Below are positions 11,911 through 33,960 of a stretch of DNA of 51,150 nucleotides, one piece after another. The position numbers were made by a program, and so were the translations under genes. Position 1 is the first letter of the stretch, and every line of letters starts with the position of its first letter. The stretch covers positions 1-51,150 of the forward strand of contig MTLU01000026.1 in the NCBI GenBank assembly GCA_002010975.1, in the 5' to 3' direction. The DNA is from Candidatus Bathyarchaeota archaeon JdFR-07. GTDB taxonomy: Archaea; Thermoproteota; Bathyarchaeia; Bathyarchaeales; Bathycorpusculaceae. The notes beneath the pieces were generated by a model that saw only the letters and a list, made by a program, of their open reading frames with translations, was not told the DNA's origin and did no database searches.

Positions 11911-12230
11911 AGGGCTGGCGAGTTGGTGTGTGGCTTTCGAGCCTCCTACCCGAGACTTGAGGAAACTCCGCCCACACGTAGAATTGCAACGCCCGCAAGG
12001 GCGTAAGGCGAGAGCCTTGGCAACGGAGCAGAAACGAAACGTCCATCCAGCATGTGCCCATGATACATGCTAAGTTGTTGAGAATGCTGGGTGGAAACGG
12101 TGAAACGGCCGTCCTGCAAGTGGAAAGGGCAAATAGACGCCTGTGAGGAGTCTACCCAGAGGCGTGGGTAGCCCGATTAGTCGAATGCCACATTAAACAG
12201 AAGGCGGGTTACAGCCAACACGCCAGTCCC
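11911..12230 (+). ncRNA. rnpB: RNase P RNA (archaeal type)
   Basis: The ends pair as helix P1: GGGCTGGCGAGTTGG at the 5' end and CCAACACGCCAGTCCC at the 3' end. Conserved region I appears as GAGGAAACTCCGCCC near 11958. The GAAACGGTGAAACGGCCGTC block and GGAAAGGGCAAATAG follow. The 3' conserved region is ACAGAAGGCGGGTTACAG near 12198. This set and the length of about 320 nt identify the catalytic RNA that removes tRNA 5' leaders. The full catalytic core seems present (type A-like). Its protein partner Pop5 is also encoded in this window, at the right edge. It fills most of the 524-bp space between the kinase gene and the Fe-S operon. Confidence 0.95.
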
Positions 12231-30542: not shown

Positions 30543-30620
30543 CTTCGCCTCCCCCGTATATTATAAGAGAGGGGCATTTAAAAAGTTTGAGTAAAAATCT
30601 TCCACAAATAACAGATAAAA

Positions 30621-30628
30621 CTATATTT
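30621..30628 (+). promoter_or_regulatory. TATA box of tRNA-Arg
   Basis: CTATATTT lies 25-32 bp before the mature 5' end of the tRNA, the expected distance for an archaeal TFB/TBP promoter with a short leader. Confidence 0.55.
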
Positions 30629-30652
30629 CACAAACCATATCCAATTTTTAAA

Positions 30653-30745
30653 GGGTCCGTGGCGCAGCTTGGATACGAAAGTGCCAGAGAGCGCGTCGGC
30701 CTTCTAAGCCGGAGATCCTGGGTTCAAATCCCAGCGGACCCGCCA
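30653..30745 (+). tRNA. tRNA-Arg (anticodon TCT), with a probable 15-nt D-loop intron
   Basis: Acceptor arms GGGTCCG and CGGACCC pair fully, and CCA is encoded. The anticodon arm is TCGGC-CTTCTAA-GCCGG, giving anticodon TCT (reads AGA/AGG). The T arm CTGGG-TTCAAAT-CCCAG is perfect. Between the D-stem halves (GCGC/GCGC) there are 15 extra bases. Removing 30675-30689 restores a normal D loop (AGCTTGGATA), so an intron is the best explanation. Confidence 0.93.
30675..30689 (+). other. Probable 15-nt tRNA intron in the D loop
   Basis: The sequence ACGAAAGTGCCAGAG is bounded by a relaxed bulge-helix-bulge. TTGG pairs with CCAG as the central 4-bp helix (one G-T pair). The 3-nt bulges are ATA and AGA, each cut after its second base. 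A small CG/TG hairpin closes the intron, and the GCGC D stem provides the outer helix. Splicing joins GGAT to AGCGC and leaves a standard tRNA-Arg. Confidence 0.75.
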
Positions 30746-33402: not shown

Positions 33403-33960
33403 ATGATGAGTCAAATGAAACGAAACCAAAAAATTTTAGAACTTAAAATTAAAGGTGTCCTAGCCGAAAAAGGCGTTAAAATTCCTAAAAAGCAAAAGAT
33501 TGATGAGCTTTCTTCAAGAGGATATGGTATAGCTGAAGATGGGGGACTTATGCTAAGTTTTTATGAAGCACTTTATCTTGTGGATAGGAATCAGTTAGAG
33601 GTAGAAGACGAAAAAGGAGGAAGGATAGATTTTCAAGAACTTTTAAAATGTTATGAAAATGTAGAGGAGGATGCTTGGTCCAAATATTTAGTTTTTAGAG
33701 ATTTGAGAAGCCGTGGATACGTGGTTCGCGAAGGTTTTGGCTTAGGTGTTGATTTTAGAGTTTACCAAAGAGGGGAGTATGGCAAGGATACCGCAAAATA
33801 CCTGATTTTAACTATACAAGAGGGGAAGCCCGTCACGTTAGAGAGGCTAGCACATGTTATGAAACAGTGTCAAAGTCTTAAGAAAGAGCTTGTTTTGGCG
33901 GTTATGAATCGTAGGGGAGAAATTGTTTACTATTCTGTATCCCAATTAACATTAGCATAG
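33403..33960 (+). CDS. endA: tRNA-splicing endonuclease EndA subunit, catalytic His missing
   Basis: 185 aa, the alpha4-type length. The N-terminal domain (LSSRGYGIAEDGGLMLSFYEALYLV) and the C-terminal nuclease domain (YLVFRDLRSRGYVVREGFGLGVDFRVY in two halves) are clear. Y121 (FRVYQRG) and K160/K161 are present, but the His of the catalytic triad aligns with T130 (KDTAKYLI). Family knowledge: EndA cuts bulge-helix-bulge introns with Tyr, His and Lys. The missing His suggests a structural subunit in a two-subunit enzyme, or another active-site solution. It lies between mtnA and hisS. Confidence 0.9.
   Translation: MMSQMKRNQKILELKIKGVLAEKGVKIPKKQKIDELSSRGYGIAEDGGLMLSFYEALYLVDRNQLEVEDEKGGRIDFQELLKCYENVEEDAWSKYLVFRDLRSRGYVVREGFGLGVDFRVYQRGEYGKDTAKYLILTIQEGKPVTLERLAHVMKQCQSLKKELVLAVMNRRGEIVYYSVSQLTLA

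Follow-up and report, generated by a model that had tools for sequence, protein, structure and literature searches.

A predicted noncanonical D-loop intron in the tRNA-Arg(UCU) gene of a bathyarchaeon, common among relatives in its order

Introduction

The window, that is, the whole 51,150-nt stretch of bathyarchaeal DNA analysed here, carries a tRNA-Arg(UCU) gene (anticodon TCT; 30653-30745, + strand) with 15 additional bases in its D loop, which raises the question of whether these bases are removed as an intron, are retained in the mature tRNA, or mark a decaying gene or an error of assembly. Comparison with related genomes makes it very probable that positions 30675-30689 form a noncanonical bulge-helix-bulge (BHB) tRNA intron, placed in the D loop between 20a and 21, that is probably removed by an (alpha beta)2 splicing endonuclease (EndA), with RtcB joining the exons. 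The observations comprise the insert, relatives in which it is precisely missing, a covarying helix, a restored cloverleaf and all three enzyme genes; transcription, cleavage at the named bonds and ligation are what we infer.

Results

Anatomy of the tRNA-Arg(UCU) gene

The gene, which reads GGGTCCGTGGCGCAGCTTGGAT-acgaaagtgccagag-AGCGCGTCGGCCTTCTAAGCCGGAGATCCTGGGTTCAAATCCCAGCGGACCCGCCA in the window, begins with a 5' exon (30653..30674, +) that comprises the acceptor 5' strand, the D-stem 5' strand and the D loop up to U20a. This is followed by the putative 15-nt D-loop intron (ACGAAAGUGCCAGAG; 30675..30689, +), whose placement between 20a and 21 is based on insert-free orthologues, the covarying helix and the fold, and by a 3' exon (30690..30745, +) with A21, the anticodon UCU, the T arm, the acceptor 3' strand, the discriminator G and an encoded CCA. 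Removal of 30675-30689 (ACGAAAGTGCCAGAG) leaves a normal tRNA with encoded CCA, 78 nt in total, having acceptor, D, anticodon and T stems of 7, 4, 5 and 5 bp, respectively; every stem outside the insert is perfect. A putative TATA-like promoter element, seen in the sequence, is located ~25-33 nt 5' of the tRNA (30619..30629, +).

The source genome (G000) is a Bathyarchaeota/Bathyarchaeia metagenome-assembled genome (MAG) of 908 kb with a completeness of 64.6%, and the closest matches of its LeuRS by identity (65-82%) are all from Bathyarchaeota/Bathyarchaeia. Its tRNA set was compiled with an Rfam search, which revealed no tRNA-Arg(UCU) besides the gene described here in the 65% complete assembly. 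Because it is the only copy found and because AGA is the most frequent arginine codon in six window genes (76/176), this tRNA is expected to be essential and has to undergo maturation.

General tRNA finders read the unspliced gene poorly. ARAGORN started it at 30671, 18 bases late, giving it a false 5' half, and an Rfam tRNA search scored it at 36.6 bits, against 63-67 bits for the window's three other tRNAs; both the late start and the low score are explained by the attempt of either tool to read through the insert. After in-silico removal of the intron, ARAGORN called the window gene at full length, and when given 21 distinct genes, each with complete flanks, it returned a full-length tRNA-Arg(TCT) in 21/21 cases when spliced versus 0/21 when unspliced. 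The preliminary description of this DNA had the gene, strand, anticodon and coordinates right, and its statement that a normal tRNA emerges only once 15 D-loop bases are removed is borne out by these calls.

Distribution of the insert among relatives

The 93-base gene, used as query against 61 related genomes, recovered full-length orthologues with inserts at the same point that differed in sequence and length. Across the class, orthologues in 47 of 257 genomes, representing 31 genera and 4 families, carried an insert at exactly 20a/21 when a pattern leaving the insert free was used; a stricter pattern matched 42 genomes, and the reversed-pattern control gave no match in the 257 class genomes. 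The recurrence at one point in the orthologues of 31 genera, together with the empty control, argues that the insert is not a product of chance. By these sequence patterns, the intron is common within the order to which the window belongs.

The comparison with homologues lacking the insert, which had been proposed as a check, is provided by 27 other genomes from 13 genera, in which a comparable insert-free pattern found the gene in a form resembling the predicted product of splicing; the two patterns, with and without intron, had no genome in common. Across the junction, the intronless orthologue of G020 (GGATAGCGCG; reads GGCGCAGCTTGGATAGCGCG) is the splice product predicted for the window gene. 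Both states occur within genus g34, in which G045 is empty and G037 and G051 are filled.

Two further observations concern gene content in the relatives. Six orthologues (L095, L105, L107, L108, L110 and L111) from several relatives combine the D-loop intron with a second, canonical intron at 37/38 of the same gene. One genome, G030, holds two intron-bearing tRNA-Arg copies (C49:11019 and C51:781) with unlike intron bodies; as the assembly is rated 8% contaminated, the copies may stem from two organisms.

A covarying helix and the splice register

The structural comparison was made on the 48 genes of the class search plus one from G449, a genome outside the class (49 in all). Their inserts are 13-28 nt long (mode 15), with a highly variable middle and a conserved site, and exon bases 17-19 are paired with positions 6 to 3 of the intron, counted back from its 3' terminus. 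In the window gene, UUGG of the 5' exon (30669-30672) pairs with CCAG of the intron (30684-30687), and this 4-bp central helix between the 5' exon and the intron 3' end covaries across the 49 genes. The outermost pair, in which exon base 17 faces the third intron base from the 3' end, is U-A in 20 genes, A-U in 8, C-G in 8 and U-G in 5; it is formed in 41/49 genes versus a mean of 25.6 with shuffled partners. This comparison overstates independence, as the intron-bearing genomes are mostly related and do not count as separate cases of covariation. Genus g20 by itself has both U-G and C-G at this pair, three genera of f1 have A-U, and G449 reads ACGG/CCGU, i.e. with the second pair altered too. 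The outermost pair is absent in 8 of the 49 genes and the innermost in 4.

The 3' bulge has three bases and is A-rich (AGA in the window, mostly AAA in relatives), and is predicted to be cut after its second base (AG|A). The splice register, which is ambiguous from the window alone, is fixed by A21, which is invariant (49/49 genes) only with a cut placed between 20a and 21. The register GGATA|CGAAAGTGCCAGAGA|GCGC, which gives the same product in the window, was rejected, because it places G or U at position 21 in 10/49 relatives. At the 5' site, the minimum-energy fold of the precursor is a hairpin (UAC-GAAA-GUG) whose 5' side bulges out just one A rather than three bases, and on its 3' side the unpaired triplet is shifted by one; an alternative fold with a 3-nt 5' bulge keeps only a weak inner helix, and the helix can gain one base pair in longer relatives. 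As the minimum-energy fold has no clean 3-nt 5' bulge, the motif is called relaxed at this site.

A D-loop intron flanked by a relaxed BHB, as originally suggested, fits every comparison made. The accompanying proposal that both 3-nt bulges are cut after the second base fits the 3' site, with its good helix and 3-nt bulge, and is less certain for the 5' bulge, given the one bulged A in the minimum-energy fold. To call the intron among the shortest was fair, but it is no record: relatives have 13 nt, and a D-arm intron of Sulfolobus tokodaii is ~16 nt.

Retention, gene decay and assembly error

Retention of the 15 bases, forming a hairpin that extends the D arm of the mature tRNA, would account for the presence of the insert across many genera, for the conservation of the exon-intron helix and for the stable hairpin into which the precursor folds at this place; a stable, conserved D-arm extension had also been named at the outset as the finding that would speak against an intron. 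Against this, the middle and the length of the inserts (13-28 nt) vary freely, no conserved helix replaces the D-loop architecture, and the insert is simply missing in close relatives, even inside one genus. A working tRNA needs G18-G19 for the contact between D loop and T loop, and because the conserved helix would bury these very bases, retention is very unlikely.

Still less probable is a decaying pseudogene whose functional counterpart is encoded in the third of the genome that the assembly lacks. A MAG that is just 64.6% complete leaves room for such a counterpart, but the stems are all perfect outside the insert, and the intron form is also the one found in complete or near-complete relatives (G021, 100%; G011, 100%; G005, 98%), with no genome matching both patterns. 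An assembly or sequencing error, conceivable for a single metagenome-assembled contig, is refuted by independent assemblies from many genera, in which this position holds an insert whose 3' end pairs, and its probability is negligible. The splicing of a D-loop intron is hence by far the most probable of these explanations.

Splicing enzymes of the source genome

G000 carries two EndA genes, like most of its relatives, as well as RtcB. The alpha subunit (G000:C7) has the Tyr-His-Lys (Y/H/K) triad, and its best matches are crenarchaeal catalytic subunits (2cv8 and 3p1z); its K39, within GKPLGIAKPK, was aligned to the loop lysine K44 of Aeropyrum pernix, located in the crenarchaea-specific loop and required for broad specificity (PMC6379350). 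The structural (beta) subunit of the tRNA-splicing endonuclease is encoded 2.7 kb downstream of tRNA-Arg(UCU) (33403..33960, +; PF01974 and PF02778) and is degenerate, with Thr at the position of the catalytic His. Judged from these sequences, the enzyme fits the (alpha beta)2 broad-specificity type known to accept relaxed BHB motifs, and it is probably this EndA that removes the intron.

In 15 genomes, including G000, the EndA beta gene is located ~2.4-5.5 kb from the intron-bearing tRNA-Arg, and no such linkage was seen on the contigs of ~10 intronless genomes checked; the pattern could reflect fragmented assemblies and shared ancestry.

Other RNAs of the genome

Additional inserts were seen among the tRNAs of G000. 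A tRNA-Arg(CCT) (L165 1465-1570; G000:C18) has an insert of ~29 nt at the junction of acceptor and D stem, with a GGTAGAG/CTCTACC helix; this appears to be a second noncanonical intron of the genome, with approximate borders. L166 (1500-1630; G000:C3), labelled Asn by ARAGORN, looks Leu-like, and its insert is complex and may comprise two or more introns. Four others (L158, L162, L163 and L164; labelled Lys, Thr, Val and Met by ARAGORN) have introns in or near the anticodon loop, and L162 looks Ser-like despite its label. The window also encodes a complete archaeal RNase P RNA (11918-12223, +; 206.9 bits).

Discussion

In the maturation pathway that we propose, UUGG of the exon would pair with CCAG of the intron, giving a relaxed BHB with a central helix of 4 bp. 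The (alpha beta)2 EndA, with the crenarchaea-specific loop lysine in alpha and with beta encoded close by, would then cut the 3' bulge after its second base and the 5' bulge or loop after U20a, and RtcB would ligate the halves to give a normal tRNA-Arg(UCU).

The most interesting aspect of this intron is its wide conservation in one order. It shows that noncanonical D-loop tRNA introns occur regularly in a large order of uncultured archaea. One scenario, offered tentatively, is that a single D-loop intron was gained early in the bathyarchaeal order and long kept while its body was wholly turned over, with selection acting only on the pairing 3' end and the bulge, and the gene perhaps kept beside EndA beta for a functional reason. 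In practical terms, a general tRNA finder (ARAGORN with the bacterial code) misreads such genes, several times with the wrong isotype. The introns come with empty-site relatives and with covariation good enough for the splice site to be deduced without data other than sequence. The natural set of 13-28 nt introns could be used for finding the smallest substrate cut by a broad-specificity EndA.

D-loop introns are already known in other archaea, and a count of 673 noncanonical introns in 217 archaeal genomes accompanied tRNAscan-SE 2.0 (PMC8450103); what the present case adds is a tRNA-Arg(UCU) intron common to dozens of related genera, of which we found no description in the open literature. 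Our search for reports on Bathyarchaeia tRNA introns covered mainly open-access papers and returned none, which is weak evidence. The earlier characterization of D-loop introns as 'rare, mostly Thermoproteales' is too narrow: D-arm introns are proven in Sulfolobus and Aeropyrum and seen in Methanopyrus RNA, and the present one is common in its order.

The proven cases are D-arm introns established by cDNA and in vitro cleavage in tRNA-Glu of S. tokodaii and tRNA-Thr of A. pernix (PMC4307357). The introns of S. tokodaii tRNA-Glu(UUC) and tRNA-Glu(CUC) resemble the window intron in being short (~16 nt from the positions given), BHB-like and located in the D arm, and their cleavage by the organism's own EndA, as proposed for the window intron, was demonstrated by cDNA and in vitro cleavage (PMC4307357). 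They differ in isotype and lineage and in their position at 22-25, further 3' than 20a/21. Similarly, tRNA-Thr(UGU) of A. pernix has a D-arm BHB intron that lies as far from the tRNA 5' end (22 bases) as the window intron and is cut by the A. pernix EndA (PMC4307357), again in another isotype and another lineage. Methanopyrus kandleri tRNA-Glu shares a D-loop intron, seen in RNA-Seq precursors and a predicted EndA substrate, but there it is a second intron alongside a canonical one (PMC3695527), unlike in the window gene, and the M. kandleri EndA is euryarchaeal and without the specific loop (PMC6379350), unlike the alpha subunit of G000. In the Thermoproteales, the published list of noncanonical intron sites includes position 20/21 (PMC4090602), as in the window gene. 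In that group, however, introns spread by transposition among many tRNAs (PMC4090602), whereas the bathyarchaeal intron looks long-retained in one tRNA, with unrelated intron bodies.
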